From: Cupriavidus taiwanensis
GTDB taxonomy: Bacteria > Pseudomonadota > Gammaproteobacteria > Burkholderiales > Burkholderiaceae
Assembly: GCF_900250115.1 (NCBI RefSeq)
Contig: NZ_LT984803.1
Span: 3,375,583-3,439,582 of the forward strand
Length of the DNA stretch: 64,000 bases
Direction of reading: 5' to 3'
Shown one piece after another: positions 35,704-56,830 of this stretch (position 1 is its first letter; each line of letters starts with the position of its first letter). Under the pieces are notes generated by a model, which was not told the DNA's origin, did no database searches, and saw only the letters and a program-made list of their open reading frames with translations. The translations under genes and the position numbers were made by a program.

Positions 35704-35723
35704 TTACGTGACCTCAATTCTCT

Positions 35724-35990
35724 TTAGTTGTTCGCAGTACTTGAGGGGCATGCTCCAAAACCCTCGGCCCCCTGAACGAGTCCGTGGTGTGCGCTGGACG
35801 AACCCAAGTCGACGTTCGTCTTGGCAACGAGCTCGTAGGTCTCAGTTATGCCTCCGCTGAGCTTATGGAAAAAGCAAGTAAAGCCGAGCCTGCAGTCCCA
35901 CAGCTCTGCGACGCTCAAGAAGCGCCCGCGTGGGCACCCGGCCTGCAGGGGCACAGCAGGCATTCGATACGTATGCAACGACTGTGGCAT
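35724..35990 (-). CDS. Possible 88-residue protein between the methylase and ATPase genes
   Basis: The frame starts at an ATG that overlaps the methylase stop (TGATG), the classic sign of translational coupling, and ends 20 bp before the DUF499 start. The sequence starts MPQSLHTYRMPAVPLQAG, has three Cys in the first half, and ends GFGACPSSTANN. I find no family. It would fill an otherwise unexplained 286-bp gap within a tight operon. The alternative is that it is non-coding spacer; composition is not decisive. Confidence 0.45.
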   Translation of the reverse strand: MPQSLHTYRMPAVPLQAGCPRGRFLSVAELWDCRLGFTCFFHKLSGGITETYELVAKTNVDLGSSSAHHGLVQGAEGFGACPSSTANN

Positions 35991-38914: not shown

Positions 38915-38927
38915 GTAATTCTTGTTC

Positions 38928-41900
38928 TTATGTGGCTGCTTGAAGAATCGCGTTCGGTTTAACGTGATACTGCTCGATACGCACAACCGGCTCCCAGTCC
39001 ATCTGGAGCGCGGGGTCGCGAACAACTTTGACCTCCGGCGTGGTCGAGCAGTTGAAGACGACGTAGAGCCAGTAGTCATGACGAAGCCGCTGAGCTGTCC
39101 GATACTCATTGGATGACAGGGCAACCTCGCCAACAAGGGCTCGACCCTTCACTTCGATGAATCGCACTTCCAGTGCGGAGGCCGGGTCGTCGGGATGCGG
39201 GCGTCGCGAGATTAAGTCGAATCCGCGATTATCGCACTCCACGCTTTCGACCTCCCAACCGCGCGCACGCTCCATCGCAATGACCGCATCAACTGCGATA
39301 CGCTCAATTTCGTCGTCACGAACGAATGGCGCCATGCCCGGTGCACTTCGGTCTGGATGAGGCAGCACCCAACCGACCCCGAGGCGGCGAATGTCGCTGA
39401 TGGTGCAGTGCCGCTCCTGTGAGAGTTCCACTCGTCTGCGCTCTAGCCGCGCGTTGAGTTCTTCAAGCTTGTCTTCTGTTAGCTTGATGTTGGCCGCTAC
39501 CGGCGAGTCGGTGTCGCCCGTAGACTGCTGCTCATGGAGCTCGGCCATGCGCATATTCTGGCGGTGAATTAGCTCGTTGAGGCTAATTTCCATGTGTTTG
39601 GCAATGGTCTCAATCTCCTTAAGGCGATGGCCCTTGACTTCCTCCAGGAAAGGCTGGAGCGCTTCGGTAACCAAGAAGTGCTCAGCGGCCTTCTCATCGG
39701 CCACGACTAGGTCGGGAGCAGCAGTGTTCTTCGGCGCCGCCACGATGTCCAACAAAAAGGTCGGTTGCTTGAGCTCTATGGCTCCATCGAGGCTTTGGAG
39801 GACAATGAACAGTCGCTTGTGCAGCTCATTCCCGCGGCCGTCTCGGATGGACGACGAGAAGACGCTGAACCTGGCCGGGACGGCGCGGTTCATGTCCAGA
39901 AAGATGGCACCTCGCGCAAGGTCATCGCGCACATGCTCCTGAAGGTCCTCGCGTACCACCTCAAACAGCGGGTGCCCAGGCGTCACCCAGTCGGCCGTTG
40001 GGTCCTTCTTGAGTTTTTCCTTGTCGAAGACAACCTGCTTGTACTCTCGCCCTAAGCGCCCAAATCGAGGCTCCAGGCGCTCGCCGATGGACCATAGGTG
40101 TCTAGGGACTCGACCGACTCGGAACGTGCTGCGGTCACGTTGCGGCTCGCTGACAGTAACTCCAGTTACTGGCGCAGCTTGCAGAAAGAAGTCTTGAATG
40201 ACCTCGGGCACCAAGCGTCGTTCGCGCGCCTCGGCCGACTTGCCCAGGATGGCCGACAGGTTCAGCTCCTTCTTGGCCAGGCCCTCCAGCGTCGATGCAG
40301 TAATGCCGCGAAAGCGCTCTGTATCTACTTCTTCAATGATGCGCTGCTTAATGAGCTCCTCGGTCATGTTGTTGTGCGCGTACATGTCGCGCAACATCCG
40401 CTCGAGCTGATTGGCCGGGAACAGGTCTCCCAGCACATTAAAGACTTTACCGGTCTGGTTGGGGTCAAGGTCCAACTCAATCTGCTCGATACGCTCAAAG
40501 AGCTTCTGCATCACACGGCCCTCGCGAGTGTTCGTCGTGACGAAGTTGAAGATGAGGCAGTCCTTCTCCTGGCCATAGCGATGGATACGCCCCATGCGCT
40601 GCTCGAGACGGATAGGGTTCCAGGGAATGTCGTAGTTAATCATTAGCCAGCAGAATTGCAGGTTAATGCCCTCACCTGCCGCTTCCGTGGCGACGAGAAC
40701 CTGACAGCTCTCGCGGAATTCACGCTCCGCGTAGATACGCGTCCCTGGAGTATCTCGGTCTCCAATCTTCATGCCGCCATGAATCTGGGTAACCGTCAGC
40801 CCCCATTCGCGCAGCTTGCCCAGGGGGCGACCGTCACGTCCGTCTCCAACGAGAAAGTCCAGAGTGTCCTTGTGCTCCGTGAAGATGAGCAGCTTCATCG
40901 TCGCATCTGAAAACAATCCTTTCTCTGTGAGCAGCCTCTTAAGATGTCGGACCTTGACCTCCTGCTCTTTCGCCTCAAGACCCTTCGCCTGCCGAATCAG
41001 CTTGTCGAGGTCGAAGATTTCTTCGCGCAAATGCTCTGGATTGAACGAGGCGACGGTTTCCTCGAGGTCAGATAGCAGCTCTTGTTGCTCATTCTCCGGC
41101 AACTCGTCGAAGTCGTCTGGAAGGCGGCTGGCAATCTGCTCTTGGCGATATTTTTCCGGGTTTTCGAGGATGCGTTCCCGCTTTCCCTTCATTCTCTCAA
41201 GGCTCCGCCGGACGGCGTAGGTGCTCGACGCGAATCGGCGCTGGAGCATCGCCATCGTGAACCCCACCGCGCGGCCTCGCGCACTATCGTCACGAGCTGC
41301 GCGAATTGACTGGTTCTCCACGTAGCGAGTCAGCTGGTCGTAGAGGTCGTACTCCTCGTCGCTGATAGCGAAGTCGCTCGTCTTGACAATACGGCGGGTA
41401 AACAGCGCTTTCACCTTACCCGTCTCCGGGTCCGGGAAGGTCACCAAAGCCTCCTTGACACGTCGAAGGTAGAACGGTGCATCCTGCTGGAGCATGGCCG
41501 CCTCCAAGCTGCTCACGTCGCCGTAGACATCCTTGTCGAGCAGCGACAGGAAGAGACAAAAATTCTCCGCGTCCCCTTTGTGTGGTGTCGCCGTCATTAG
41601 CAGGAAGTGGTCTGTCATCTGCGACAGATGCTCTCCGAGCTGAAACGCCAGGGTCTTCTTGTCCGAGCTGTACGCGGACATCTTGTGGGCCTCATCGACA
41701 ATGATGAGGTCCCAGTGGCTTCGCAGCAGCGAGTCGCGGGCATCCTCGACACGGGATACCCAGGACACCGAGGTAATGACCTGGTTCTTCTCCTGCCAGG
41801 GATTGCTGCCGTAGTTTGCGCGCAGCACGTCGCTGCGAACCACCTCGAACTGCTCACGGAACTTGTCTTTGAGTTCGCGCTGCCACTGGAACGAGAGGTT

Positions 41901-42374
41901 CGCTGGCGAGACGATGAGGGTGCGCTTGACTAGGCCGCGAATCTTCAGCTCCTTAATAAGGAGCCCGGCCATGATGGTCTTGCCAGCGCCCGGGTCGTCA
42001 GCGAGCAGGAAACGGATGCGCGGCAGTTTCAGGAAATAATCGTAGACCGCCTCAAGCTGGTGAGGCAGCGGGTCCACACGAGCGATTGACAGGGAAAAGT
42101 ATGGGTCGTACTCGTAGGCGAGACCCAGCCGCATGGCCTCCACCCCTAAACGAAAGCGCATCGGGTCCCCGTCGTACGGCTCCTTCTCCGGGCTGGCGCT
42201 CAGCTCCTCGAGCTGTTCCTGGGTCAATATGGGGTCATACATCCTCTCCGAGCGAAGACCCTTGCCGAACATCTTGAGGGACGCGCCAAATTCCTGAACA
42301 AGCACTACCTGGACAGGCTCAGGGAACAGTGGACCCGACACGATGACGCCGGCTTTCAGTTCTGGCTTCTTCAC
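38928..42374 (-). CDS. SNF2/SF2 helicase with C-terminal DUF3883-like (Mrr-type) domain
   Basis: The protein is 1148 residues from a GTG at 42374, placed one base after the RHH gene stop. Motifs: Walker A DDPGAGKT (126-133), DEAH (227-230), TATPHKGD, and the C-terminal helicase motifs ATEAAGEGINLQF and QRMGRIHRYGQ (about 600). The last 120 residues carry DAVIAMERARGWEVESVE, GFDLISRRP and FIEVKGRA: the D...E-x-K nuclease-like core of DUF3883. Other bacterial defence systems (e.g. DISARM) use SNF2-type helicases with methylases; here the partner set is DUF1156-DUF499. It probably translocates on DNA and cuts unmodified DNA. Confidence 0.87.
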   Translation of the reverse strand: MKKPELKAGVIVSGPLFPEPVQVVLVQEFGASLKMFGKGLRSERMYDPILTQEQLEELSASPEKEPYDGDPMRFRLGVEAMRLGLAYEYDPYFSLSIARVDPLPHQLEAVYDYFLKLPRIRFLLADDPGAGKTIMAGLLIKELKIRGLVKRTLIVSPANLSFQWQRELKDKFREQFEVVRSDVLRANYGSNPWQEKNQVITSVSWVSRVEDARDSLLRSHWDLIIVDEAHKMSAYSSDKKTLAFQLGEHLSQMTDHFLLMTATPHKGDAENFCLFLSLLDKDVYGDVSSLEAAMLQQDAPFYLRRVKEALVTFPDPETGKVKALFTRRIVKTSDFAISDEEYDLYDQLTRYVENQSIRAARDDSARGRAVGFTMAMLQRRFASSTYAVRRSLERMKGKRERILENPEKYRQEQIASRLPDDFDELPENEQQELLSDLEETVASFNPEHLREEIFDLDKLIRQAKGLEAKEQEVKVRHLKRLLTEKGLFSDATMKLLIFTEHKDTLDFLVGDGRDGRPLGKLREWGLTVTQIHGGMKIGDRDTPGTRIYAEREFRESCQVLVATEAAGEGINLQFCWLMINYDIPWNPIRLEQRMGRIHRYGQEKDCLIFNFVTTNTREGRVMQKLFERIEQIELDLDPNQTGKVFNVLGDLFPANQLERMLRDMYAHNNMTEELIKQRIIEEVDTERFRGITASTLEGLAKKELNLSAILGKSAEARERRLVPEVIQDFFLQAAPVTGVTVSEPQRDRSTFRVGRVPRHLWSIGERLEPRFGRLGREYKQVVFDKEKLKKDPTADWVTPGHPLFEVVREDLQEHVRDDLARGAIFLDMNRAVPARFSVFSSSIRDGRGNELHKRLFIVLQSLDGAIELKQPTFLLDIVAAPKNTAAPDLVVADEKAAEHFLVTEALQPFLEEVKGHRLKEIETIAKHMEISLNELIHRQNMRMAELHEQQSTGDTDSPVAANIKLTEDKLEELNARLERRRVELSQERHCTISDIRRLGVGWVLPHPDRSAPGMAPFVRDDEIERIAVDAVIAMERARGWEVESVECDNRGFDLISRRPHPDDPASALEVRFIEVKGRALVGEVALSSNEYRTAQRLRHDYWLYVVFNCSTTPEVKVVRDPALQMDWEPVVRIEQYHVKPNAILQAAT

Positions 42375-42633: not shown

Positions 42634-42833
42634 TGAAGCGGCTGTAAATGCGCCTCGACGTAGTTGGCAAGTACGACGAGGGACAAGGCACGTTTCCGTC
42701 CGCGCTGGTGTATGTCGTGGGGGGATGGGAGGCCGAGTCAGGCCGCTGCGAGCTTGGGTGGAGAGCGCTTCGAGATGCAGCGGCATCCAATAGGGCAAGC
42801 AGATAGGATTGCTGCTGCCCGGCAACATCTCCC

Positions 42834-43160
42834 CTAGGAAGATGGCTTCGGCCGGCGTGCAATCGCCTCAATACGCTCCTCCAAGGAAGGTTTTCGAGGG
42901 GGGAGCGGCTGCGGAAACAACAAGTACAAGTGGCGAGCGTGACCAAGAGTTTTCAGCGCGCGCAGGAAGGTCTCCAGGGTTCCTTGTCCATGCGTCTCGA
43001 ATCGCTTATAGGTTCGCAGCGCAATACCGGCCGAGGCAGCAAATTCCGCCTGAGAGAGCTTCGCCTTTTTCCTCTCGCGCCTCACCCTCATAGCGAGATA
43101 TCCACAGAGCCCTGTTTCATCTAGCTGCCGGAGTAGCGCGAGTTCTTGTTCTGGTGTCAT
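42834..43160 (-). CDS. XRE-family HTH regulator
   Basis: The protein is 108 residues. An N-terminal helix (MTPEQELALLRQLDETGL) precedes a HTH: AMRVRRERKKAKLSQAEFAASAGIALRTYKRFETHG, about residues 23-58. The tail is Pro/Arg-rich. It is divergent from the giant gene at 43332, across a palindrome at 43177-43188, and is probably its repressor. Confidence 0.8.
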   Translation of the reverse strand: MTPEQELALLRQLDETGLCGYLAMRVRRERKKAKLSQAEFAASAGIALRTYKRFETHGQGTLETFLRALKTLGHARHLYLLFPQPLPPRKPSLEERIEAIARRPKPSS

Positions 43161-43176
43161 GGCTCTTCATTTGTAG

Positions 43177-43188
43177 GCCAAATTTGGC
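43177..43188. promoter_or_regulatory. Palindrome between the XRE gene and the giant-protein operon
   Basis: A perfect 12-bp palindrome GCCAAATTTGGC 17 bp upstream of the XRE start and about 145 bp upstream of the plus gene. This is a typical size and place for an XRE operator. A TATATT box at about 43240 could serve the plus operon but lacks a good -35. Confidence 0.5.
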
Positions 43189-43331
43189 ACTAAAACTGTG
43201 GATAGCCTAGCAGCTGTTATCTCGAATTTAAAGACTGTTGTTATATTGAGAGCACTTAACCCTCAAACCACCCCCCAGATAGGTCGTCTGGCCGGGTGAA
43301 GTGGCGTAGCTGCCAAAAAAGGAGCCGACCA

Positions 43332-46300
43332 ATGACAACCTCGCGCCCGCAAGGCGGCTCGAGCGTATCTGCTCGCGACCGTACCCCTTCCCTTCAATTG
43401 TCAAAGGTCGCAGACCTGCTTGCCAAAAGCATCCGCGATAGCAAGGCGGCATCTGGCGTTTCCTTCGTTCATCTCGATGGACATCGTATTCGGGTTAATA
43501 CTCGCGCTGCACTCCAGCCGTTCTTGAATGACGACTTCAAGAACGCCTTCACGCCGGGGCTTGAGACGGGCTTCGTGCGAGACATGGAAATGCCTCCTTT
43601 TGGCTCGACTGCGCGTGTCGGTGGCCGACTGCTCGATGGCTCGGCTGCCGCCACCTCGAAGGCGATTACCGCTCTGCATAATGCAATTTCTGATGTCTTA
43701 GACTCAGCATTGGGCGACGCAGACCTGACTGCATTGACGGTCTCATCCTTAGAGCAATTGCTTGGAACACTGGCTAACTCAATCAACGAGCGTAAGCCAG
43801 ACCTTCCGGCATCGGCGAGCATGGTGCCGGTGGCGTTCGGTCAGCCGGGGCGGAAAGCTGATGAGCGCAGCCAGGATTTAGCACGCGTGCTATCAGCAAT
43901 CGAGACTGTGGATGGCAAGGACTGGCTCGATGCGCTTCTGAATGGCATTGCAACGCGATTGCGCAGCAATGACGTCGAACCAGAAGAAATTGACGACATC
44001 CTAGTTGCCATCAGGGCCCAACGTAGTCAACCCGGGAGTCAGATAGCGCGGTTCCTGGATTTTCTAGACGATGAAGCGCTGTCGCGAGTGCGGCTCCAGG
44101 TAACTATGCGACTGATGGAGGCGATTGCAGCGCAATCGGCCAAAGAGGGACTGAAGGCTTACGTAAGTCGCGTTATCACATGCTTTAACGCATTCGCTGG
44201 CATTGACGGTTCTGCGCTGACCCTTGACATCGGTACGCTATATGGCCAGCACAACTCCCCTCAGTTTCACGAACATCTGCGCACGGTTGGATTCTACGGT
44301 TGCCTTCCCGTGTGGCCGGAGTGGTCAGTACAGCTTTTCGAGGGTCGCGCCGAACCTTCTCAGGGTTTCAAAACTAAACGAGAGGTTTCATATTGCTTCC
44401 GAGTCAATGGCACAAATCCCCGAACCGGTAAGGCTGCCTTCGATTCGCGGCTCGATAACATTCGTGAGCGTGTCCTAGACGAGCCGAGTGCCGACGCTAA
44501 CGTGAAGTGGAAAGTAGCGGAATTGGTGTTCCTCTGGCTTGTGGTTCCCGATTCGCTTACAAATCCTTCTTCATTGGATGTAGTCCGAGCTGCGGCAGAT
44601 GTTGCAGCACGGTTGAAACGCAATCCTGTGGGCACCTTGGGCGACTTGCATGCGGACCTTATCGGAAGATGCAAGACGATGGATGACATCGCCAGCGAAA
44701 TGGTGGAGGTCTTGAAGTCCAAGTCGGCTAACCTCATCCAGTTCGCGGGTCGAAATGCTGACAAGTTCACCGTTGCTGTTTCGCGAAGCATCGTGAACTG
44801 GGAAGCAGTCGAATCGATGTCGTCCTCATCGACAAATATTCTAGTTAGCCGCGAGCGCGGCTCTGACTCCGTTGAGTGGTTTAACCATTTGACCGTAGCT
44901 AACACTGCCATGGTCCCAGGCAGCATTGCGTCGTACGGTGTTGAAATTGCTCTACAGGAGCGTTCGCTGACTACGGCGGGTCGTTCTGCGGAAGTCCACT
45001 TGCGACGTGAGCTTCAGCATCCGGTTCTTCCAGTCAGGTATCTGCCATTCACGCGAAACAACGCTGGCGAATGGACGCCGCACAGTGTCGATACACGGGT
45101 GATGGATGCAGGCGTGGGAATCGACATCGAGTATTCCCTCAAGTATTTACAACTTTCGAGAACGAAAGACGACGAAAAGGCCGCGTCCGAGCAGCTACGT
45201 GCGGCGACCCTAACGGCTTTTGCCCTACTTGTGTACATCACACTCTGGGAGTTGTCGCGGCGCGTTCAGGCTACGGCTGCCAGTGCATCCCTATCGATGA
45301 CGATGGTACGGCTACAGCACACCGGTAAGCAGAACAGTCGTGAGGCTGACGCGCACGACGCGAACACGGTGATATTCGCGGTTAGCCAGGCAATAGAAAA
45401 GGCTTTGACGCGGGAAATGCCGGTCAAGCTTCAAGGGCTCACGACCCAGACCAAGGACCAGAACGATAGCCTGCGATGGAAACGTAGGGGCGCCCTCCAT
45501 GCCCTGCTCGGCGGGCAACCGCTGAACTTTCGCATGGAGGGAGGACTCGACAAGGTCGCGCTGGTGACCTATGTAACGCGTCCATGTGACACGCATCCTT
45601 CCTTTCCCGATGCGGATGGCTTCCTCTTCCAGAGTCGCACCTATCGCGCGGCGCGCGAGAACGGAGCAACCATTCTGAGAGTGGAATCGATGCAGTCGCG
45701 CCTAGTCGAAAGCCGGAAGGATTTCCAGGCACCGCAACTCATCCTCGAGGAAATCGCACGGCTTGAGAAAGACGGCTTCGAGCACATAATGTTGCTGTCC
45801 CATCATTTCGGTAACCGGCACATCGGTCGCGCGGCGGAGCGGCACGCTCCGCACGGCACGCTGCAATTCCTCGATGAAGCCGCGAAGCGTTTTCCAGGCG
45901 TTCATGTCTATCCATTGCGACGAGATGTCTTTAAGGCAACAAGGCTAAGAAAGCGCGGAACGATGGAGAGCGGCTTCGAGGTCGTTAACTTTGCGGACCA
46001 TCAAGCCATGTACGACCAGTTCGAGGGTGGCGACCTTCGGACGCTAATGCCGATATATACGTTCGCCACGCTTGTTGTAGTCGACGAAGACTCACGACCG
46101 CAGTCTGGGTTCTGCACTTACTTCTTCGACGCGGAACAACGGCTTAGCAACATTGAGCTGAAAGAGACAGTTCGTCAGAACATTCTGGGCGTCGGTAAAG
46201 GAGACGCCCAGAACACGCGCGCATCTCTCATCAGCGTGCTTCGCGCCATCCATTTCATGGAAAGCGAAAAGCCTGCGTTCAAGACCCAACTGCTGCCTGT

Positions 46301-46451
46301 ACTCGACCCGTTTGACTGGGCCACTCCCGCGCGCACCTCTGCCGCAGGCGAAGTTGAAATCATGACCCGTCGAGGTTCCCGCTCGGTTTTGCTGTCTGTG
46401 CCGGCGGTACTGGCGCATGTCACCAAAGTCCTGCACAAGGATACCGAATGA
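43332..46451 (+). CDS. Unrecognised 1039-residue protein, first gene of the giant pair
   Basis: Start at 43332, with AGGAG eight bases upstream; the frame open earlier adds a basic stretch without a site. I do not recognise the family. N-terminal half (1-480) is helical; SSTNILVSRERGSDSVEWF is near the middle. The last 300 residues alternate strand and helix: KVALVTYVTRPCD, ATILRVESMQSRLVES, LILEEIARLEKDGFEHIMLL, RFPGVHVYPLRRDVFKAT, TFATLVVVDEDSRPQSGF. That order resembles an RNase H/PIWI-type fold, but no full catalytic set is evident, so this is only a hypothesis. Its stop overlaps the helicase start by 4 bp (ATGA), so the two are translated as a pair. GC and codons match the rest of the island. 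Confidence 0.8.
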   Translation: MTTSRPQGGSSVSARDRTPSLQLSKVADLLAKSIRDSKAASGVSFVHLDGHRIRVNTRAALQPFLNDDFKNAFTPGLETGFVRDMEMPPFGSTARVGGRLLDGSAAATSKAITALHNAISDVLDSALGDADLTALTVSSLEQLLGTLANSINERKPDLPASASMVPVAFGQPGRKADERSQDLARVLSAIETVDGKDWLDALLNGIATRLRSNDVEPEEIDDILVAIRAQRSQPGSQIARFLDFLDDEALSRVRLQVTMRLMEAIAAQSAKEGLKAYVSRVITCFNAFAGIDGSALTLDIGTLYGQHNSPQFHEHLRTVGFYGCLPVWPEWSVQLFEGRAEPSQGFKTKREVSYCFRVNGTNPRTGKAAFDSRLDNIRERVLDEPSADANVKWKVAELVFLWLVVPDSLTNPSSLDVVRAAADVAARLKRNPVGTLGDLHADLIGRCKTMDDIASEMVEVLKSKSANLIQFAGRNADKFTVAVSRSIVNWEAVESMSSSSTNILVSRERGSDSVEWFNHLTVANTAMVPGSIASYGVEIALQERSLTTAGRSAEVHLRRELQHPVLPVRYLPFTRNNAGEWTPHSVDTRVMDAGVGIDIEYSLKYLQLSRTKDDEKAASEQLRAATLTAFALLVYITLWELSRRVQATAASASLSMTMVRLQHTGKQNSREADAHDANTVIFAVSQAIEKALTREMPVKLQGLTTQTKDQNDSLRWKRRGALHALLGGQPLNFRMEGGLDKVALVTYVTRPCDTHPSFPDADGFLFQSRTYRAARENGATILRVESMQSRLVESRKDFQAPQLILEEIARLEKDGFEHIMLLSHHFGNRHIGRAAERHAPHGTLQFLDEAAKRFPGVHVYPLRRDVFKATRLRKRGTMESGFEVVNFADHQAMYDQFEGGDLRTLMPIYTFATLVVVDEDSRPQSGFCTYFFDAEQRLSNIELKETVRQNILGVGKGDAQNTRASLISVLRAIHFMESEKPAFKTQLLPVLDPFDWATPARTSAAGEVEIMTRRGSRSVLLSVPAVLAHVTKVLHKDTE

Positions 46452-49400
46452 GTGAGTTCACCTCGACCCTGCCTTTCCAGAAGCAGGCGGAACTGTGGGG
46501 GCAGACATACGAAATCCTGGTCAAACGCGGGGTACTCGCATGTCTTCTTGAACGCAAGCTGCTAAGTGGCGGGCATCCAGCCCTTCAGCCGTGGCGCGAG
46601 GTACGCCTGACTAAGGTTTCAGCGGCCCTCGCGAAGCACCTCGACGTCATCGACGAGAATGCGCGTGAACTCATCAAGGCGGCCGTCGACCATATCGCGT
46701 TGACTGCTTACGGGGTCGGCTATACAGCCATGCGTGAGTATCTCAAGCACATCGGCAAACCAGTCACAAACGGAAAGCTTAAAGTACGCGCACTATGGTG
46801 CCCGTTGACGCTGCCAGGGGAGTCGACGGCGGCTCCTGAAAGCCGGCAAGCTGCCCGGGAACAACTTCATGCGGAGCTAGGGCTACCCGGGCCGGTCGAC
46901 CCGGCTTTATCGGAAAAAGGGCAACCAGCAAATGCCGACTTCATGCTCTGGCTGTCCGGCACCCATCGAGAAGATTATCTGCTGGTGCAGGAGTACTCGT
47001 TTGACATGCCCGGCGATATGGGTGACTTTCGCCACCAGCAGGCCCACCTCGATGAACTATTACGGCATCGGCGGCTCGTTGACTCGCGCAGCGTGTTCGC
47101 CCGCGTGGCAGCGGAGATTGATGGCGAAACATTCGATATATCCGATGACATCCGAGAGCATCTAACGGCCTTGACGAGCGAGAACAAGCCCTTCTACAAG
47201 CTTTGTCAGGCCTGCGGTTATGGCGAATCTACTGCCCGTGTCCTTGCCCATGCAGACTTGATAGAGAAGCCTATTGCTGTTCGTGCACTCGCTATCACCC
47301 CGAATGGGCTAGAAAGCCTCGCAGCGCGATTCGACAATGCAATGACGAAGGAGCCACGTCGCAGTTTGATGGAGCAGATGGGCGAAGCCTACCGGCGTGC
47401 GCCGAAGCTCGCCGACGGGGACGACGACGGATTGACTCAAAAGGTGGGGGCGGTCTTCAACAGCCTTTTGCGCAAGCTTCCTCGTAAGCTGCAGGACGGA
47501 ATGAAGGGGTTGCGCAAAATTCCGACTCCAGGGGAGGATTACCTCTTTGAGTTCGAAGAAGAGGTTCCTTCCTTCGCCAATCCAATGCAGTTGTTTGCAA
47601 TGGACGACGCGCTCTCCTTGGTAGAGGAGACCCCTGCAATAAACGAGTATTTTGGCGGGCAAGCAAGGGCGGAAATCGGTGCCAAGATGCGGAGTGTTGC
47701 CGGAACTACAGGACACATTTCCCTGCGCGACATGCACGCGTCTGCAATCGTCGCCGGAATGGAGCAGGCGATGGCGGGTGAACTGAACGTAATCGCACTC
47801 GAAGGAAATCCTGGAATCGGCAAGACCACCGCTGTGCGTCGATATCTCTCGGCGAAGCCAGAAGGATATCTCTTCTTGTATGTCAGTCCCCGCGTGGTCA
47901 TTAACCGGGACGTAACGGAAAGTCTTGCACGAAAGGATGGTAAGCCCACTGGCATCTTAACCGTCACGTCCAACGCACAACTCAATGCAGCGGCGAAGCG
48001 CTTTCACGCCGAGAAGGTTGATGCGGGTCTCGCGGAGCCGAAGTTAGTCGAAGGTGCTGTGGTCGCTGATGGGGTTAGCGACCTCGTTGTCCCAGAAGGC
48101 TCCACCATCCTCGTGTTGAGTCCCGAGGAAGAAACAGCGATTGACACGCACTTTGCTGGCGAGAGCTATCGTAAAACGACCCTGTCGGAATCAGAGGACC
48201 AAGTGCTCGATGCACGCCGGATAGGAGTTCTGGCCGGTGTGTCGCAGATGACTCGGGAGCTGTTGACGTTGAACAAGCATGTCAATCGCGTAGTGATTAC
48301 AGCCGCGTTGCAGGGCTTCCGCGAACGCAGCGGCGGCAAGACGACGATGGATGCATTGTCTAACCTCTTCGAAAACAAGGCTGAGTCGAAGGCCGGTATC
48401 GCGGAGCGTCGACTTTTCAGCCAGCGCATTCCGAATGTGGTCGTGATGGTTGATGAGCTTGCCGGCGACGGAGCGGGGGCTCCGTTCGTCGACGCGGTTG
48501 CGCGATGGCTCAACAATGAATTCTTGGATTGTTTCGAGAATGAGGTAAGCCCCTTCACCGTCACGCTTGTGGTGTCGGACGCGTCCCTCGGGAATGAAGT
48601 TGTCCTCGACCGCTATCTCAACGCGGGCAAGCGTACTCCGGACAAGGTGCTCATTTCACGCTCGCGCGGTGAGCAGCCATTCGCCGTTGCAGTCACACCG
48701 GTACGAATTGGTGGCGGAACTCGTCGGACGTATCACGTGATGACGAATAGCTTTCCCGCCAGCGAACTGCACATCCGATACCAGGCGAAATTGACCGCCG
48801 TCAGCTTAGAGGAAAGCCCAACCGGCCTACCGGAGACACCACGACAGGCAATTCGCAGAGTCGCGGAAGATGCGTTGATGCAAACGGCCGTGAACGAAAT
48901 CTGTAGCGCGCTTGGCGAAGGTGCCGTGCAGGTTATCTATTTCGCACAGGACAAGAACTTCTTGAGTGACCTGCGAAAACGGCTCTCAGAAGAGAGTTGT
49001 CACGGCCTCTCGAATGATACGGTTGAAGTTCTCGACTCCTCTGTGCCCGGATGGAAGCGTGCCGAACTAGTGAAGCCTGAGCGGCGAGACTCCATTCGAG
49101 TGTTCCTGATGACATCGTCTGGAGCACGCGGTGTGTCGTTTCCAAAGACTGACTGGATAATTGCCAATATGCCACGCTTCAATGTTGAAGCCGCACTTAT
49201 GGAAATCGCCCAGCTCATTTATAGAGGGCGCGGCATGTACGTGAACGAGGATGGCGCCTCAGTATCAGGGGACTTCGCTAGACGACACCTCGTGATGTTG
49301 ACCGAGGACTTTGTGATTAGCGACGAGGAGATTGACCAACGCCAGTGGCTCCGGCAGTCCCTTGACCTCATGACGCTGCTGGTGATGCTGCGGGCCACTA

Positions 49401-50326
49401 TCTTTACTCGAATTACAGGTGCCGCAGGACTGCGGCAGAAGCTTGCGCTTGTGCCCGTGGGCGCGGTTGGTGTTGAAGAGCTTGTTAGCCTGATGTCGCA
49501 GAACGTATCGAAGTTCATGCGTGAGGCGGAGGTGTTCCAGCGCCGCGCGTCCGACCGCTCGCTCATTGGTTTGGCCAAGAATGCACAAGCGAACGTGAAC
49601 AATCTCTTCTCGCGGACACGGCTACAGGCGAACAGCCAGCGCGACCGGGATGGGCGCACCATGGTCAAGCTCGCGGAGATGCAGGGCCTGCGCGACATCG
49701 CGATAGCCGGCGTCGCACCGCTGCTAGTCGAGCATGAGGGCAAGAGCATACCCGAGCATGTCTATTTTACCGGGCCAGTTGTGATGGAAGATTGGGAGAG
49801 TTTTGCGAAGCAGGAAGCTTTCACCTTCGAAGGTCATGAGACGCAAATTGCTCAGTGCAGCAAGGAATTACTCGGGCAGCTCTATCGGATTGACCAAAAC
49901 CATCGGTTCCCGTCGTCTCTCAGGCAACCGGCCTTGAATCTATTCCGATTGATAAGTCGCGAAAAAGAAGGGGCGGCAAACGAATTCAATACACTGAAAG
50001 ACTTGAAGTCACCCAATACGTGGGTGGCAGTGCCGACTGGGTATGCGCAGTTCCTCTACAACGGCAACTCTATGGAAGGACGGCGCTTCGTTGCCGATGA
50101 GCCGGAATTGTGGCGCGATGCGCTCGCCAAGGCGCTTGGTGCGACTTCAGCGGTGATGCCGCCGATTCCTCATTTCGAGTCATTCCCGTGGGCCGCGTCT
50201 GTTGGGCAGGTCAACCCTCTCAAACTTGATTTGGTGTTCGATGACCGTTACTTCATGGCATCAAATGAACTCAATTTGCTCAACACCCTGCTTCTCGAGG
50301 CCGCTGCATCAGAAGAATCTACGTGA
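46448..50326 (+). CDS. 1292-residue SF2-like helicase/ATPase, second gene of the giant pair
   Basis: The start is the ATG in ATGA shared with the upstream stop. The first 440 residues have no recognisable motif. Walker A is EGNPGIGKTTAV (about 452-463), Walker B VVMVDELAG (about 665), then MTSSGARGVSFPKTDW (about 890) and the motif VI-like QLIYRGRG (about 920), where helicases have QxxGRxxR. The C-terminal 370 residues are unassigned. It is an ATP-driven nucleic-acid motor; a broad DinG/DEAD-like relation is possible. Substrate unknown. It follows the 1039-residue gene and is followed, after 424 bp, by the TerY-P triad. Confidence 0.75.
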   Translation: MSEFTSTLPFQKQAELWGQTYEILVKRGVLACLLERKLLSGGHPALQPWREVRLTKVSAALAKHLDVIDENARELIKAAVDHIALTAYGVGYTAMREYLKHIGKPVTNGKLKVRALWCPLTLPGESTAAPESRQAAREQLHAELGLPGPVDPALSEKGQPANADFMLWLSGTHREDYLLVQEYSFDMPGDMGDFRHQQAHLDELLRHRRLVDSRSVFARVAAEIDGETFDISDDIREHLTALTSENKPFYKLCQACGYGESTARVLAHADLIEKPIAVRALAITPNGLESLAARFDNAMTKEPRRSLMEQMGEAYRRAPKLADGDDDGLTQKVGAVFNSLLRKLPRKLQDGMKGLRKIPTPGEDYLFEFEEEVPSFANPMQLFAMDDALSLVEETPAINEYFGGQARAEIGAKMRSVAGTTGHISLRDMHASAIVAGMEQAMAGELNVIALEGNPGIGKTTAVRRYLSAKPEGYLFLYVSPRVVINRDVTESLARKDGKPTGILTVTSNAQLNAAAKRFHAEKVDAGLAEPKLVEGAVVADGVSDLVVPEGSTILVLSPEEETAIDTHFAGESYRKTTLSESEDQVLDARRIGVLAGVSQMTRELLTLNKHVNRVVITAALQGFRERSGGKTTMDALSNLFENKAESKAGIAERRLFSQRIPNVVVMVDELAGDGAGAPFVDAVARWLNNEFLDCFENEVSPFTVTLVVSDASLGNEVVLDRYLNAGKRTPDKVLISRSRGEQPFAVAVTPVRIGGGTRRTYHVMTNSFPASELHIRYQAKLTAVSLEESPTGLPETPRQAIRRVAEDALMQTAVNEICSALGEGAVQVIYFAQDKNFLSDLRKRLSEESCHGLSNDTVEVLDSSVPGWKRAELVKPERRDSIRVFLMTSSGARGVSFPKTDWIIANMPRFNVEAALMEIAQLIYRGRGMYVNEDGASVSGDFARRHLVMLTEDFVISDEEIDQRQWLRQSLDLMTLLVMLRATIFTRITGAAGLRQKLALVPVGAVGVEELVSLMSQNVSKFMREAEVFQRRASDRSLIGLAKNAQANVNNLFSRTRLQANSQRDRDGRTMVKLAEMQGLRDIAIAGVAPLLVEHEGKSIPEHVYFTGPVVMEDWESFAKQEAFTFEGHETQIAQCSKELLGQLYRIDQNHRFPSSLRQPALNLFRLISREKEGAANEFNTLKDLKSPNTWVAVPTGYAQFLYNGNSMEGRRFVADEPELWRDALAKALGATSAVMPPIPHFESFPWAASVGQVNPLKLDLVFDDRYFMASNELNLLNTLLLEAAASEEST

Positions 50327-50750
50327 CATGCTAGTGTGTCGGTAGCATCGCGCAACAACTACTTCTTGTCTACGCCCGTCGCCCGGCGACAAAGCTAGTC
50401 TACTTGAGGTGCACCAGGGGTACCTCAGCAGTGTGCCGCCCCTGCTACAGCGATGCTGAGCAGCCGTCAAGGCGCACAAACAGGCTCGGCGACGGTGTTC
50501 AAATAGCCTCCGTTGCGCGCAAAACTGTAGGAGCGCTCAGCAAAATCTCCGTAAAATCAAATACCTATGAGTGTCACCACAACTAGCTGAAACTGCGCTG
50601 GAGCGTTCATGCCGGCCCGGAAATTTGGGTGCAAAATCAGACCCGACGCGCCCAAAGGCTTACCTCTTCTGGAGGGCGTACCGGCCAACGACTTTTCCGC
50701 GCCGGTCGCTGTGGCTATGATTGAGGACGTTCGATAATCGGGGGTACGTG
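50327..50750. other. 424-bp interval before the TerY-P triad
   Basis: No supported gene; a 60-codon frame at 50404-50586 looks spurious. A GTCGCC/GGCGAC hairpin lies at about 50379-50392. The triad probably has its own promoter here, but I cannot pick a convincing one. Confidence 0.4.
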
Positions 50751-51425
50751 ATGTCAGAGAATGAGTTTGCCGTTCAGGTGCCGTTCGGCACCGATAGCTT
50801 TGCGGACAATCCTGAGCCGCGCTGTCCATGTCTCCTTCTACTGGATACCTCTGCCTCGATGGCCGGTACGGCGATTAGGGAGCTGAACGCGGGTGTCGTC
50901 GCATTCAAGGACGAGTTGGCCGCTGACACGCTGGCCATGAAACGTGTCGAAGTGGCGGTGGTCACCTTTGGCCCGGTGCAGGTCAGGAACACCTTCCAGA
51001 CTGCGCCCAATTTCATTCCGCCCCAACTGGAGGCAACGGGCGACACGCCGATGGGCAATGCGATTAAGCAAGGCCTCGAGTTGCTGCGCCAGCGCAAGGA
51101 GGAATATCGAGCGAACGGCATCTCTTTCTATCGTCCGTGGGTGTTTCTCATCACCGACGGTGCCCCCACCGACGAGTGGCAATCTGCCGCCGCCTTCATT
51201 CGAGAAGGCGAGGCTTCGAAGTCGTTTGCCTTTTTCGCGGTTGCCGTTGATGGCGCAAATATGGAGGTGTTGCGCCAGATTTCCGTCCGGGAGCCGGTTA
51301 AGCTCCACGGGCTGAAGTTCCGGGAGCTGTTCCAATGGCTCTCGAACTCGATGAAGTCGGTGTCACAGTCGACACCTGGTACGGCAGTAGCGCTTCCCGC
51401 TCCTTCCGGGTGGGCTGTGGTGTGA
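50751..51425 (+). CDS. TerY-like VWA-domain protein of a TerY-P triad
   Basis: The protein is 224 residues from the ATG at 50751 ([15 protein letters not shown]); an earlier ATG lacks context. A VWA fold with a complete MIDAS: DTSASM (about 34), a Thr in TGDTPMG (about 100), and [10 protein letters not shown] (about 138). TerY-type VWA proteins are the metal-dependent adaptor of the three-gene TerY-P unit (VWA, PP2C, kinase), described by comparative genomics and included in lists of tested anti-phage systems. The next gene overlaps by 4 bp. Confidence 0.85.
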
Positions 51426-52183
51426 CTTGGAGAGTCATCAGCGCAAGTACCATCGGCACCGCGCACGTATCCAACGGCGGACACTGCCAGGACACCTGCT
51501 TCGTTGACGTGCTGTTTGGTCAAGACCGAGCGCCCTACCTTGTCTGCCTAGTCTCGGACGGCGCTGGCAGCGCACAGTTTGCTGCCCAAGGGTCAGACTT
51601 GGCATGCTCGACAGCGGTGGCCAGCATCGAGGCGACGCTACAACGCGGGGATGGTGTTCGCGTGGCAGACATCGCCGAGTGGGTGATTGCTATCCAGGAA
51701 GCGGTGAGGCGCGCAGCGGCCGCTGTTGAGGCGACGCCTCGCGACTACGCATGTACGCTCGTTGGTGCCGTGGTGGGCACCTGTAATGCGGTGTTCTTTC
51801 AAATTGGCGATGGTGCGATTGTGGTCTCGAATCGAGTCGCGCAGGGGGTTGTGTTCTGGCCAGAGGCGGGACCGTACGCGAACATGACGCACTTCGTCAC
51901 GGACGAAGATGCTCTGGACCACCTGTGCATTGAGATGGCTTCAGTGGAAGTCGAGGAGATTGCACTCTTTAGCGATGGACTTCAGAGGCTGGCCTTGGCC
52001 TTTGACACCAGACTACCGCACCACCCCTTCTTCGACCCGATGTTTGGTGTCCTGCGCAGCAAGAAGCTGGAAGAGTGCGAGGCAGTCAGCGCGCAACTTT
52101 CCAAGTTCCTCAGCAGCCCGCAAGTCAACGAGCGGACCGACGACGATAAGACCCTGATTCTGGCCACCCGCAGGACGGCATAA
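51422..52183 (+). CDS. PP2C-type Ser/Thr phosphatase of the TerY-P triad
   Basis: The protein is 253 residues from a GTG that overlaps the VWA stop (GTGA). Starting at 51335 would overlap the VWA gene by 91 bp and add residues that PP2C domains do not have; [14 protein letters not shown] is where the domain normally begins. Metal-binding Asp motifs: CQDTCF, SDGAGSA, a [16 protein letters not shown] and a terminal [10 protein letters not shown]. The phosphatase should oppose the kinase of the next gene. One base-level join (TAAATG) links it to that gene. Confidence 0.88.
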
Positions 52184-54124
52184 ATGGAGCTTTATGACGG
52201 GCAAGGCCGGCGCATTACGTTAGGCAGGGTACTCGGGCGTGGCGGAGAAGGCTCCGTTCACGAGGTGCCGTCAATCAGCCCGCACTTGGTAGCCAAGGTC
52301 TATCACGAAGCCATCTCGCCCGAGAAGCAGGCGAAACTGCGTGCTATGGTTAGGCGCGTGGACGACCGGCTAAAGGAAATTGCGGCTTGGCCACTGCAAA
52401 CTCTTCACCCTGCTGCAAACGGGCCTGTTCGCGGATTCCTGATGCCCAAGGCGGCTCAGGCCGAGCCGCTTCATCACCTCTACGGGCCGGGGCATCGAAA
52501 GCAACAGTTTCCCGGCACCGATTGGGCCTTCCTGGTGAACACCGCGCGTAACGTGGCATCCGCATTTACCACGGTCCACGCCGGCGGTTGCGTGATTGGT
52601 GATGTCAACCCAAATCTGGTGTTCGTTGGCCGCAATACACTGGCTCGCCTTATTGACTGCGACTCGTTCCAAATTCCAAATGGAAGCGCGCCGTACCTAT
52701 GCGAAGTCGGGGTTCCGCTCTTCACGCCGCCGGAACTGCAGGGGCTGTCCAGTTTCAGGAACGTACTGCGCACGCCCAATCACGACAACTTTGGACTGGC
52801 ATTGCTCGTGTTCCATCTCCTTCTGATGGGACGGCATCCGTTTTCAGGGCGCTTCTCTGGTAGCGGTGATATGCCGCCAGAAAAAGCCATTAGGGAATTC
52901 CGCTATGCATTCTCTGCGCCGGCGGGTCGCAGGAGCATGCTACCGCCCCCTAATACAGTGGGGCCTGAGATTCTGCCACCGTCGATGGCAGCAATGTTCG
53001 AGCAGGCATTCACGGAAAGCGGCGCCCAGCCAGGGGGCCGACCGACTGCCCAGAATTGGGTCGCTGCCCTGGACGGACTCAAGAGCCAGCTCCGAACCTG
53101 TGGCACCGACGCTGTTCACAAGTTTTACGGTGGGCTAGGTAGCTGCCCTTGGTGCGAGCTGGAGCACCGTGCTGGTATTGTCTTCTTCGTAGGTCTCATC
53201 ACCGCAACGGCGCCAGGAGCGGTCCCGTCAACGTTTGACCTGGCTCGAGTATGGGCAGCCATTTTGGCCGTGCCCTCCCCCGGGACGGCACCGGCCCCTG
53301 CCTTCACCAAGCCCAACAACTTGAAGCCCAAGCCTCTACCGCCTGACGTGCGGAACGCGAGGATGTGGAGGGTAGCGCGCCGTTGGGCTGCGGGAGCTGT
53401 GATTCTTGCGAGCGTTGTTGTCGCCCCGAAATATCTGGTCTTCGCCTTAATTCTGGCAGCCATGCTTTTCTTTAGCGGGCAATCAAATTCGCCAGAGCAA
53501 GGGCTGCGTAAGGCTGCGCTCGATAATGCGAAGAGGGTTTCCTCGGCCGCCTGGTCACAGTGGAGCAACGTTGCCACGGACAAGCAATTTCAAGACAAGC
53601 TCGATGAGCTGAAGCAGATGCGCCGTGAGTACGAAGACTTGGCCAACAGATTTGCCAACGACAAGCTGAAACTGCAGGCAAATGCCCGCGAGCTGCAGCT
53701 GCGTAAGTATCTGGAAAGATTCTTCATCTCCGACCATGATATTCCGGGCATCGGCCCAACACGCAAGGCAACGCTGGCGTCATTCGGAATTGAGTCGGCT
53801 GCGGACGTTTCTTGGAACCAAATCCACGCCATTAAGGGGTTCGGCGAGCGCCTTACGCGCGAGATTGTGGGCTGGCGCAAAAAACTGGAAGCGCGATTCG
53901 TGTTTGACCCGAACAAAGGCATTGACCCGGCCGACATCGCGGCTTTGCAGCAGCGATACACGCAGCTCAAGCGGCAGCTGGAAGCCCAGCTCGCGTCTGG
54001 TTCTGAGCAACTCAAGCAGGTGCGGCTCAAGACCGAGCAGCAAAGGACCATTCTTCGCGAGATGGTGCTCAACGCTAATCTGCTGGTCGCCCAAGCGGAG
54101 GAAGACTACAAGGCCTTCCTCTAA
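52184..54124 (+). CDS. Protein kinase with zinc ribbon, membrane helix and helix-hairpin-helix (TerY-P kinase)
   Basis: The protein is 646 residues and starts immediately after the phosphatase stop. Kinase domain, about 1-310: GRGGEGSVHEV (nucleotide loop), VAKVYHEA (Lys), CVIGDVNPNLVFV (catalytic Asp and Asn in a GDxNPxN form instead of HRD), DCDSF (in place of DFG). A CPWC half-zinc ribbon at about 324, one hydrophobic helix at about 405-427, a coiled coil to about 505, and a helix-hairpin-helix (IPGIGPTRKATLASFG, then IKGFGERLTREIVGW) at about 520-560, then a second coiled coil. The HhH suggests DNA binding; the whole is the canonical triad kinase, here with a membrane anchor. Confidence 0.85.
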   Translation: MELYDGQGRRITLGRVLGRGGEGSVHEVPSISPHLVAKVYHEAISPEKQAKLRAMVRRVDDRLKEIAAWPLQTLHPAANGPVRGFLMPKAAQAEPLHHLYGPGHRKQQFPGTDWAFLVNTARNVASAFTTVHAGGCVIGDVNPNLVFVGRNTLARLIDCDSFQIPNGSAPYLCEVGVPLFTPPELQGLSSFRNVLRTPNHDNFGLALLVFHLLLMGRHPFSGRFSGSGDMPPEKAIREFRYAFSAPAGRRSMLPPPNTVGPEILPPSMAAMFEQAFTESGAQPGGRPTAQNWVAALDGLKSQLRTCGTDAVHKFYGGLGSCPWCELEHRAGIVFFVGLITATAPGAVPSTFDLARVWAAILAVPSPGTAPAPAFTKPNNLKPKPLPPDVRNARMWRVARRWAAGAVILASVVVAPKYLVFALILAAMLFFSGQSNSPEQGLRKAALDNAKRVSSAAWSQWSNVATDKQFQDKLDELKQMRREYEDLANRFANDKLKLQANARELQLRKYLERFFISDHDIPGIGPTRKATLASFGIESAADVSWNQIHAIKGFGERLTREIVGWRKKLEARFVFDPNKGIDPADIAALQQRYTQLKRQLEAQLASGSEQLKQVRLKTEQQRTILREMVLNANLLVAQAEEDYKAFL

Positions 54125-54141: not shown

Positions 54142-55131
54142 TTATTCGGTGACGGTAATACTCTGGCCGGTATCCTTGTTTGTCAGGCGTCCGCCACAAC
54201 GCTCAATGCGCTGCCCCCGCTGCCACTGAGCCAGTCCTTCCTTGTCCGCGACGCCGCCAGGTGTCAGCTTCGTGTAGTCCGAGAGGTATAGGTAAAGGCC
54301 CTTCGAGGCGACTGCTCCTAGCCAAAACATTTCACAGCGCGCGGTGGCTGACGTGCCTACCAAGGGCGCTTTTTTGGGGGTCTTAATAAAATCGGGCGAT
54401 GCGGGGGGGGTTGTAGCTAGCTTCGCTTCGGTCGCTGCGTTTGGTGTACTCGCCGCTGTAGCGGCCTCCCGAGCATCCTCGGCGAGCCAATCTTGCCGGC
54501 AACTCAACTGCCTGTAAGAGCTTGCACATATGCTGCGGTTCTCCCGGTGTTCGGCATCTCGTACTGCCTTGGCTTGCTCCGGCGAAAGGTCCTGGTGCCG
54601 GCACATGGCCAAGTATTTTCCGGTGAGGCAAGTACGCAAATTTTCCTGCAACTCCGCTTGATTGACCGCGACCCGCTGCTCGGCAGTTAGCTTGTTGCGG
54701 TCACACAACGCGGCGTAACGGCCTTTAATGCATGTCGCATAGTTTGCGCGGCGCTCGGCCTCATCGACTGCTATGCGTTGGTCAGGAGTCAACTTATTGT
54801 GGTCGCACAGCGCTGCATAGTTGCCCTTAATACACGTTACGTAGTTTGCCCGACGCTCGGCCTCATCAACTGCGATGCGCTGGTCTGGGGTCAGCCATGC
54901 GTGCTGACAAAGCGAGGGATAGCGGCCATCGAGGCATTTTGCATGGTTTTGCGCAAGCTCGGCTTGTCGAACCGCCGCAGCTTGGTCCGGCGCCAGTCGG
55001 TCATGTTGACAGAGCGCCGGATATTTTCCGGACAAGCAGGTTGCCAAGTTTCGGTCATATTGAGCGAGCGACGTGCACGGCCACACTCCAAGAGCAGCCA
55101 GCAGACCGACTAGGACGGTGATTGCTCTCAT
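54142..55131 (-). CDS. Secreted protein with six Cys-pair repeats
   Basis: The protein is 329 residues. A signal peptide (residues 1-23, ending TSLAQ) is followed by about six repeats of 30-32 residues. Each has the form CxxGxYxxLCxxxxLxxxQ with an AVxxAExxxN helix after it; two Cys lie nine residues apart in most. The C-terminal third has a Pro/Ala linker and a small domain, SATARCEMFWLGAV through LTPGGVADKEGLAQWQRGQ. The fold is probably periplasmic with disulphide-tied helical repeats, resembling Sel1-type arrays in organisation but not in sequence. It overlaps the J-domain gene by 4 bp and converges on the kinase gene with 17 bp between. Function unknown. Confidence 0.75.
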   Translation of the reverse strand: MRAITVLVGLLAALGVWPCTSLAQYDRNLATCLSGKYPALCQHDRLAPDQAAAVRQAELAQNHAKCLDGRYPSLCQHAWLTPDQRIAVDEAERRANYVTCIKGNYAALCDHNKLTPDQRIAVDEAERRANYATCIKGRYAALCDRNKLTAEQRVAVNQAELQENLRTCLTGKYLAMCRHQDLSPEQAKAVRDAEHRENRSICASSYRQLSCRQDWLAEDAREAATAASTPNAATEAKLATTPPASPDFIKTPKKAPLVGTSATARCEMFWLGAVASKGLYLYLSDYTKLTPGGVADKEGLAQWQRGQRIERCGGRLTNKDTGQSITVTE

Positions 55132-56594
55132 GACCGGGTTCCTGGCGTGCCATCCGCTGGCGCCGAAACACCGCTGGCTGGTGAAGGCGCACCTTGGTCC
55201 GGGTCAGTCACATAGCTCTTGCCGTTAAATCGTGCCAGGAAGGTTCCGGAAACAGGCGCAGCGACGCCACTGTCGTTCATCCGGGTGCCGGTTACTTTGA
55301 GTTCGAGGGGATAATACAGGCTCTTGTTATCACGCGCGAAGCGCACTGAGACGTTGAATTCTTCGCAAGCGCTTTTCTGGCTTCCGCATTGGGATGTTCC
55401 GGTGTTGCTGCCGCCTGTAGTCACCTCTGCGAGCTTCCGGATGCCTTTTTGCTCAATGCTAAATATGTCAATGGAGCTGGCCGTAACTCCCTGTCCGCCC
55501 CATTCATGCCGAAACACCAACCCAGGATGCTTCTTGCCGATTTCGACTAGTGCGACCGATGACAGGTCGTACTTTCCCCACGCCCCCATCATCCCCAAAT
55601 CCTGCAATGGTGTTGCGGCAATCTCCTCGCCCGCCTTGGACCGAGTTGTGATGATGGCCGAGACGACGGTCGCACATGCGTGACAGTCGTAGCTCTGCGT
55701 TTGTACCGGTATAGACTGCAGAAGGTAGAGAACTCGAGCCCCGAATGGTAGCGGTACACGCAAGGCCACTTCGGTGTTGAAGATTCCTTGCTCGGCTTCA
55801 GGCAAAGACTCCCCGGCGGGGAGACGGAACGAATCCTTGGTGCGCACGGCAGTCCCGCGCGTTGCATCCAGTGTTCGCAGTTCCACCACGGATGATAGGA
55901 ACGAATAGGGCCCAGGTGCCGCTCGTTCCTCTGGCCCACTTGCCGATACACTTGCCGGTGTGCTTGCGGGGCTAGTTGCAGCCACACCGGCCTCTGTGGC
56001 GTTTGGCCCGTCACCCTTACTGGACTCCTTGGGCATCAAGTACAATACTCCAGCAAGAACCACCACGATTCCCAATAGGGATAGAACCCCGTTCGAGTCC
56101 CGGCGAAGTGTCCCCACTGTTTTTCCGGCAGCATAGCCGGCGGCCGCCATAGGAGTGGCCTGAGATTGACCAGGAAGGGAACCGCTTGTCCCGAACATAG
56201 CGCTGACTGCTTCCGCTATGTCCACTGGGCATTGATGCGATACAAGCAAGTCCCGAATCAACTCGCCTGTGTAACCCTGGCCGCGCAGCTCAACAGCCCA
56301 TTCCACCATACTGTTGACAAACGTCGCTTCGGGGTCGACGGCTCTCGACCGTGCATTGGCGAACCGGTAAGAGCCCCCTGGGTGACGCTGAACATCGTAT
56401 GCCCCGCGCGCTGTTTCGTCCGAAAGCACAGAATAGGCCTCGGCCAGCCGCGCAAAGCGATGGGCGGCATCGGATGGACTATTTTCGCCGTGCGCAGGAT
56501 GAACCTTTGCGGCCGCATACCGATAGGCTGCTTTGATTTCTGTTACTGAGGCGTCCTCGCGTACACCTAGCACGCCATAGTAGTTCTCTGTCAT
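55128..56594 (-). CDS. Membrane J-domain protein lacking the HPD aspartate
   Basis: The protein is 488 residues with GGAGG before the ATG. The J-domain is at residues about 3-68: YYGVLGVREDASVTEIKAAY, then VHPAHGENS instead of the obligatory HPD, then FARLAEAYSVLSDETARGAYD. Without Asp it should not stimulate an Hsp70. A membrane helix lies at about 168-188 (LLGIVVVLAGVLYLMP), and the 300-residue C-terminal part, probably periplasmic, is beta-rich with a Cys pair (CHAC) and Cys in SQCGSQKSACEE. It shares an ATGA overlap with the Cys-repeat gene, so the pair probably functions together at the membrane. Confidence 0.78.
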   Translation of the reverse strand: MTENYYGVLGVREDASVTEIKAAYRYAAAKVHPAHGENSPSDAAHRFARLAEAYSVLSDETARGAYDVQRHPGGSYRFANARSRAVDPEATFVNSMVEWAVELRGQGYTGELIRDLLVSHQCPVDIAEAVSAMFGTSGSLPGQSQATPMAAAGYAAGKTVGTLRRDSNGVLSLLGIVVVLAGVLYLMPKESSKGDGPNATEAGVAATSPASTPASVSASGPEERAAPGPYSFLSSVVELRTLDATRGTAVRTKDSFRLPAGESLPEAEQGIFNTEVALRVPLPFGARVLYLLQSIPVQTQSYDCHACATVVSAIITTRSKAGEEIAATPLQDLGMMGAWGKYDLSSVALVEIGKKHPGLVFRHEWGGQGVTASSIDIFSIEQKGIRKLAEVTTGGSNTGTSQCGSQKSACEEFNVSVRFARDNKSLYYPLELKVTGTRMNDSGVAAPVSGTFLARFNGKSYVTDPDQGAPSPASGVSAPADGTPGTRS

Positions 56595-56830
56595 GCCCTC
56601 CCCCGTGCGAACGTCGCGATGTGGGCTTCAATAATCCCTATTCTGCTGGAGTTTACAAGGTCTGGCTAAAGGGCTGCGGGCAAAGGCCCGCATTAGCGAG
56701 GTCGCGTGTCGGTATGGCTACAGCCTGCGATAAGGGACTAGCTATTCCCCTTCTCCCATGGTCTACGAAGTAACAGCACGGGTAAGATACCTTCCGCACC
56801 GAAAGTGTGATTGCACCCTATAGATGCATT

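Follow-up and report, generated by a model that had tools for sequence, protein, structure and literature searches.

We analysed a 64,000-nucleotide stretch of the Cupriavidus taiwanensis genome (contig NZ_LT984803.1, positions 3,375,583 to 3,439,582; hereafter the window), in which two long adjoining genes, here called A and B, lie between a divergent gene for an XRE-type helix-turn-helix protein and a triad of VWA, PP2C and kinase-like genes. We find that A and B form a pair that is inherited together and under selection, and that this pair is very probably independent of the triad. Together with the XRE gene they make up a cassette that is undescribed, a conserved and unnamed two-gene unit with a helicase. 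On balance we lean toward reading XRE-A-B as a two-gene cassette with a probable anti-phage or anti-plasmid role, with the triad as an independent neighbour.

A and B are inherited together

Gene A (43332-46451, plus strand) encodes 1039 residues counted from its ATG, and its open frame also permits a GTG start at 43296 that would give 1051 residues. Gene B (46448-50326, plus strand) encodes a 1292-residue ATPase resembling superfamily 2 (SF2) helicases and shares 4 bp, ATGA, with the end of A. Divergent from A lies the gene of the XRE-type protein (42834-43160, minus strand; PF01381 HTH_3, E-value 5e-5), a putative regulator of the cassette. An earlier note on this DNA had described the 4-bp overlap, the divergent XRE gene and a VWA-PP2C-kinase series on the same strand after 424 bp, and our coordinates and family matches agree with it on all three. 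The XRE gene accompanies the pair in three loci: the window, Cupriavidus sp. U2 (locus L001) and locus L020, and its position is kept in the latter two (87% identity and E-value 1.6e-21, respectively).

A was found in 14 records, namely the window, Cupriavidus sp. U2 (91% identity to window A), four proteobacterial plasmids, six cyanobacterial plasmid records and two genomes of the same order as the window, so that the taxon range of the pair takes in Cupriavidus, Acinetobacter, Acetobacter and cyanobacterial plasmids. The cyanobacterial records were found with a Trichormus protein as query (in a small set, window A reaches this protein at an E-value of 3e-5 and a Tolypothrix relative at 8e-6), and the two same-order genomes were found via B. 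In all 14 records B lies directly downstream of A on the same strand, an order taken from the examined loci and, for NZ_CP047244 and AP018239, from match coordinates. Conversely, A precedes B in 14 of the 15 records with B; the sole exception is Stanieria (L013), where a truncated B adjoins a transposase. In the window, L001, L002, L009, L010 and L011 the two genes still overlap by 4 bp, while they are separated by a few bases in L004 and L005 and by about 100 in L012. Broken copies also occur: B is split into two open reading frames in L003, A is split into two in L020, and B is short in L021.

Across eight taxa, the pairwise identities of A and those of B are correlated with r 0.996 (Mantel p 0.0002). 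Comparing the window with Cupriavidus sp. U2 gives a ratio of nonsynonymous to synonymous substitution rates (dN/dS) of 0.071 in A and 0.060 in B; both genes are under purifying selection, and because of these ratios we do not regard either as a chance frame. The DNA that the window and U2 have in common forms a single blastn block (window 42813-50324, L001 9478-16989) that starts next to the XRE gene, holds XRE-A-B only and ends at the stop codon of B. XRE-A-B is probably a self-contained mobile cassette.

The pair is rare and sporadic. A occurs in 1 of 369 genomes once two chance matches are dropped. For B the counts are 1 of 398 and 3 of 349 genomes, where the draws overlap and include the window's own genome each time. 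The two dropped matches (genomes G072 and G116) are weak, have no match to the A profile at an E-value of 0.01 or below, and fall in open reading frames that by eye look RecN-like and polyketide-synthase-like. Scans of viral contigs returned no relative, and nothing in the phage records matched A or B. In the papers searched, none of six accessions belonging to homologues of A and B is mentioned, a negative that reaches no further because there is no name under which to look for the pair.

Protein B is helicase-like by its motifs

Window B taken alone gives weak P-loop and Helicase_C matches. Helicase_C is matched in all nine B homologues scanned (best E-value 8e-8), which bears out the earlier description of B as helicase-like. 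The helicase core spans residues 430-1000 (47735-49447, plus strand) and carries GxPGIGKT at 453-460, DE at 669-670, DAS at 711-713 and QxxYRGRG at 922-929; these motifs, along with T889 and R894-G895, are invariant or nearly so among seven non-redundant homologues. The signature is complete, with Walker A, DE-box, motif V and an arginine-rich motif VI, a set which we take to be SF2-type, and by these motifs B classes as an SF2 helicase. When the B profile is compared with the PDB the best match is MSS116 (E-value 3e-4), covering the helicase core only. PADLOC, a collection of defence-system models, gives mad8 in two of nine B homologues (best E-value 5e-5) and the DinG-like Csf4 in one of nine (E-value 0.034), all in the P-loop region. 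The mad8 model also matches an unrelated DUF4011 helicase, and we therefore read the PADLOC matches of B as generic to ATPases. A VWA match inside B (E-value 0.023, in two of nine homologues) was set aside as chance.

In front of the core lies a conserved N-terminal domain, residues 1-420 (46448-47707, plus strand), with a nuclease-like pattern by eye. The residues that are kept are D164, E/D182, S184, K247, K251, Q254 and Y258, and they recall the RecB/Cas4 nuclease pattern with serine in place of lysine. The catalytic set of PD-(D/E)xK enzymes is incomplete here, since D164 and E/D182 are present and the lysine is replaced. A nuclease ancestry of this domain is, from these residues, a tentative suggestion.

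Protein A may carry an RNase H-like domain

The earlier note placed A in no recognised family, and this stands: A matches no family in Pfam, PADLOC or NCBIfam at an E-value of 1 or below and none in PHROGs at 0.01 or below. Its homologues fare alike, with Pfam matches at chance level (nine scanned, best E-value 0.042) and a PADLOC family in none of nine. The A profile has no match in the PDB at an E-value of 10 or below.

A low-confidence structural model, fold matches and conservation together point to residues 690-1039 (45399-46448, plus strand) as a candidate RNase H-like, perhaps PIWI-like, domain. Within this region the residues Q701-G702, Y930, H974 and E979 are invariant. With regard to the conserved Arg and Glu that pPIWI-RE proteins have on the PIWI sheet extension, the residues of A considered are R750, kept in six of seven homologues, and E979, kept in seven of seven. 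The Foldseek matches of the C-terminal models are mostly to folds that we class as RNase H-like. In the VIA list for A, exopolyphosphatases come at the top and argonautes lower; pPIWI-RE is absent among the matches listed, which excludes nothing. A viral fold library gave one match below an E-value of 0.001, with a root-mean-square deviation of 26, which we disregarded. In hhalign comparisons with prokaryotic Argonautes (pAgos), the best local pairing sets the QG...LGGxP stretch of A against a Q...KLGG stretch of the pAgos, at a score within the range of decoys. From the models, an RNase H fold for the C-terminus is about an even call, and a PIWI-like identity for A is a more tentative proposal.

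A probable role in defence

We consider it fairly likely that the pair acts in defence, because of the genes found beside it (HMA, dCTPase, Mrr, GmrSD_N, HNH and PDC-S37/Hhe-type) and because of its rarity. In the window, the genes HmaA, HmaB and HmaC of the helicase-methylase-ATPase (HMA) defence system occupy 32917-42374 on the minus strand (PADLOC E-values 5e-200, 3e-105 and 3e-127), and next to them on the same strand is a gene for a 541-residue dCTPase-type protein (30910-32535; PADLOC E-value 8e-156). The earlier note's neighbouring defence genes are real here, within 30910-42374. Elsewhere, the gene behind B is Mrr in Cupriavidus sp. U2, GmrSD_N in L020, an HNH gene only 29 bp away in Acinetobacter piscicola, and a PDC-S37/Hhe-type gene in Acinetobacter sp. 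PK01.

If the pair is defensive, we can picture its action as follows. The XRE protein would hold A and B silent. A would bind a nucleic-acid state of foreign origin, such as a guide-target duplex or an RNA-DNA hybrid, by way of its possibly RNase H-like or PIWI-like, and probably catalytically inactive, C-terminal domain. Having bound, A would recruit or activate B, which would then translocate on DNA and destroy or block it, either through its own N-terminal domain or through a neighbouring nuclease. The fullest version of this reading, which taken as a whole we hold to be somewhat unlikely, is that A represents a further lineage of prokaryotic PIWI type, probably catalytically inactive, working with a helicase that bears a derived nuclease-like domain in a guided or hybrid-sensing defence common to proteobacteria and cyanobacteria.

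Several observations weigh against this picture. The argument for defence is one of guilt by association, drawn from the gene neighbourhood, and the gene behind B varies from locus to locus. For the N-terminal domain of B, the lysine of the ExK motif is serine in all seven homologues, and its hhalign score against PDDEXK_1 members, 13.2, is equalled or surpassed by 4 of 40 decoys; homology to PDDEXK_1 is unsupported, the profile score not rising above the decoys. For A, the models are poor (predicted local distance difference test scores of 40.5 for residues 690-1039 and 35.7), and they have no PDB match in Foldseek below an E-value of 0.001, with a warning from the tool that the matches may be meaningless. 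The hhalign score of A against pAgos, 14.7, is equalled or surpassed by 9 of 30 decoys with shuffled columns, the reversed profile scores 17.4, and homology to pAgos by hhalign is likewise unsupported because the score does not exceed that of decoys.

A different role for the pair would be to serve mobile DNA, by maintaining, transferring or recombining it. Such a role would suit the plasmid records with B, of which 6 of 11 are typed conjugative and 1 mobilizable, and also the TnsB/TniB/TniQ-type transposition genes that U2 has some 5 kb upstream of its pair (L001 291-5148, plus strand) and are a possible carrier of the cassette. It is harder to square with the remaining 4 of 11 plasmid records, which are non-mobilizable, with the window and U2 copies, which sit on large non-plasmid contigs, and with the restriction-type genes among the neighbours. 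We regard it as decidedly unlikely and retain a defence role for the pair.

Should the pair protect against phages or plasmids, it would bring to the catalogues a two-gene helicase system whose sensor family, that of A, has no name and escapes the models of Pfam, PADLOC, NCBIfam and PHROGs. Were A PIWI-like, it would also reveal the reach of inactive PIWI sensors.

Comparison with known systems

The nearest known idea is pPIWI-RE. This system has three genes in the order restriction endonuclease, DinG helicase, pPIWI-RE (PMC3702460), and a member from Pseudomonas stutzeri is reported to be an RNA-guided DNA nuclease (PMC10991935). The likeness is that a large protein, whose C-terminus is here a candidate for the PIWI/RNase H type, is encoded beside an SF2 helicase, and that occurrence is sporadic and mobile. 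The pair could be a very divergent member, yet there are differences: here A comes first and helicase B second in 14 of 14 records, reversing the strict order of restriction endonuclease, DinG and PIWI (PMC3702460), and B lacks the cysteine-rich iron-binding insert of DinG-like proteins, with Helicase_C and no DinG-type model matched in window B. Nor does B have a conserved cysteine cluster (only C118, in six of seven homologues, and C256, in three of seven, recur), and no pPIWI-RE Pfam model is matched at an E-value of 1 or below in any of nine A homologues. Set against the MID plus PIWI (RNase H) fold of pPIWI-RE, A offers poor models with RNase H-like fold matches and a pAgo profile score within the range of decoys. 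Membership is very improbable, and we do not file the pair there because it departs from pPIWI-RE in the order of its genes, in the type of its helicase and in Pfam membership. The pPIWI-RE Pfam model was also matched in none of 60, 249 and 369 genomes (overlapping draws), a result that is uninformative since it was matched in none of 14 controls either.

Hachiman (HamAB) is a parallel in logic only. It too is a helicase with a partner in a two-gene pair, where the helicase senses and the partner acts (PMC12278908). The difference is that PADLOC gives no family for A (nine of nine homologues) and no Hachiman protein in B, and that A, at 1039 residues, has no recognised nuclease. The earlier note would also have been refuted by membership of the pair in a named system, and our comparisons give none: no PADLOC model is specific to it (none of nine for A, generic matches only for B), and it differs from pPIWI-RE in Pfam domain, order and helicase type.

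The triad is a separate neighbour

The triad begins 424 bp after B with the VWA gene (50751-51425, with its ATG at 50751; PF00092, E-value 3e-8), continues with the PP2C gene (from a likely GTG at 51422 to 52183; PF13672, E-value 1e-46) and ends with a kinase gene (52184-54124; weak Pkinase and HHH_5 matches, E-values 0.012 and 0.006), all on the plus strand. It is a series of VWA, PP2C and Ser/Thr kinase-like genes in order, in which the Pfam match of the kinase is weak. The kinase tail holds a hydrophobic stretch, a helix-hairpin-helix (HHH) and a single CPWC pair.

Of the 14 pair loci, 12 had flanks that could be examined (the stretch of L021 breaks off within A, and the L020 contig ends about 3 kb behind B), and triad homologues beside the pair were scored by phmmer at an E-value of 1e-3 or below. 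We find them in one locus, the window, and in none of the other 11. In the opposite direction we examined seven triad loci (L014 and L052-L057), out of 81 plasmid records with a relative of the kinase, with flanks of up to 10 kb (about 4.5 kb upstream in L014); VWA, PP2C and kinase occur together in all seven, and neither A nor B was found in any. The earlier note had asked whether the pair recurs with VWA-PP2C-kinase genes, and in the examined loci beyond the window it does not; a pair occurring without the triad is what the note itself had named as refuting it. Its proposal that pair and triad work as a unit, the kinase and phosphatase switching the helicase, can point to the same-strand arrangement 424 bp apart in the window and is set against 11 of 12 pair loci without the triad, seven of seven triad loci without the pair and an end of the U2-shared DNA at the B stop codon, and we reject it as barely credible. 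What survives of that note's account is a conserved, unnamed helicase unit beside defence genes; what falls is its link to the triad. Setting the two apart avoids recording a false kinase-controlled helicase system.

Three further loci touch on this question. Cupriavidus sp. P-10 has a plasmid that carries both the pair and the triad, some 110 kb from each other. In L012 a different annotated Ser/Thr kinase, which does not match the window kinase, lies 4.7 kb behind B. In the Stanieria locus (L013 10034-21040) annotated vWA and DnaJ genes stand about 6-9 kb beyond the truncated B, and this vWA is unrelated to the window VWA at an E-value of 1e-3.

The triad is instead a YegL-PphC-YegI-type unit that shares the island with the cassette, is independent of it and forms no part of it. 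Its closest annotated counterpart is E. coli yegL-pphC-yegI; the E. coli record has the triad under these names, followed by the chaperone gene yegD, which we take to be the arrangement in K-12 as well, and the window kinase is related to a protein annotated YegI. Relatives of the kinase occur in 81 plasmid records, and synonymous divergence between the window triad and that of L014 is saturated. The earlier note had also called the triad a known anti-phage unit, which looks weak. The described TerY-P-like modules (PMC11090510) are likewise trios of VWA, PP2C and Ser/Thr kinase, with an OB-fold on the kinase of the stand-alone defensive module and a zinc ribbon on that of CoCoNuT, whereas the tail of the window kinase has its hydrophobic stretch and HHH without either. 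No CoCoNuT genes were recognised near the triad. PADLOC gives no family for VWA or PP2C at an E-value of 1 or below and only weak PD-T4-6 matches for the kinase (best E-value 1.5e-4).

Behind the triad, on the minus strand, are convergent genes for a repeat protein (54142-55131) and a J-domain protein (55128-56594). These go with the triad, and not with the pair, in C. oxalaticus (L014 7865-10251, minus strand), one of the seven triad loci. A convergent chaperone-related gene behind the triad is thus seen both in Cupriavidus, as the repeat and J-domain genes, and in E. coli, as yegD (L055 11942-13294, minus strand); among the seven triad loci only L014 and L055 have one. Farther on, a protein with an NYN nuclease and an OST-HTH/LOTUS domain is encoded at 56807-57667 (plus strand). 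Finally, the frame of a large serine recombinase (61895-63748, plus strand) overlaps a tRNA-Arg gene (63491-63566, minus strand), a site that is possibly one border of an integrated island.

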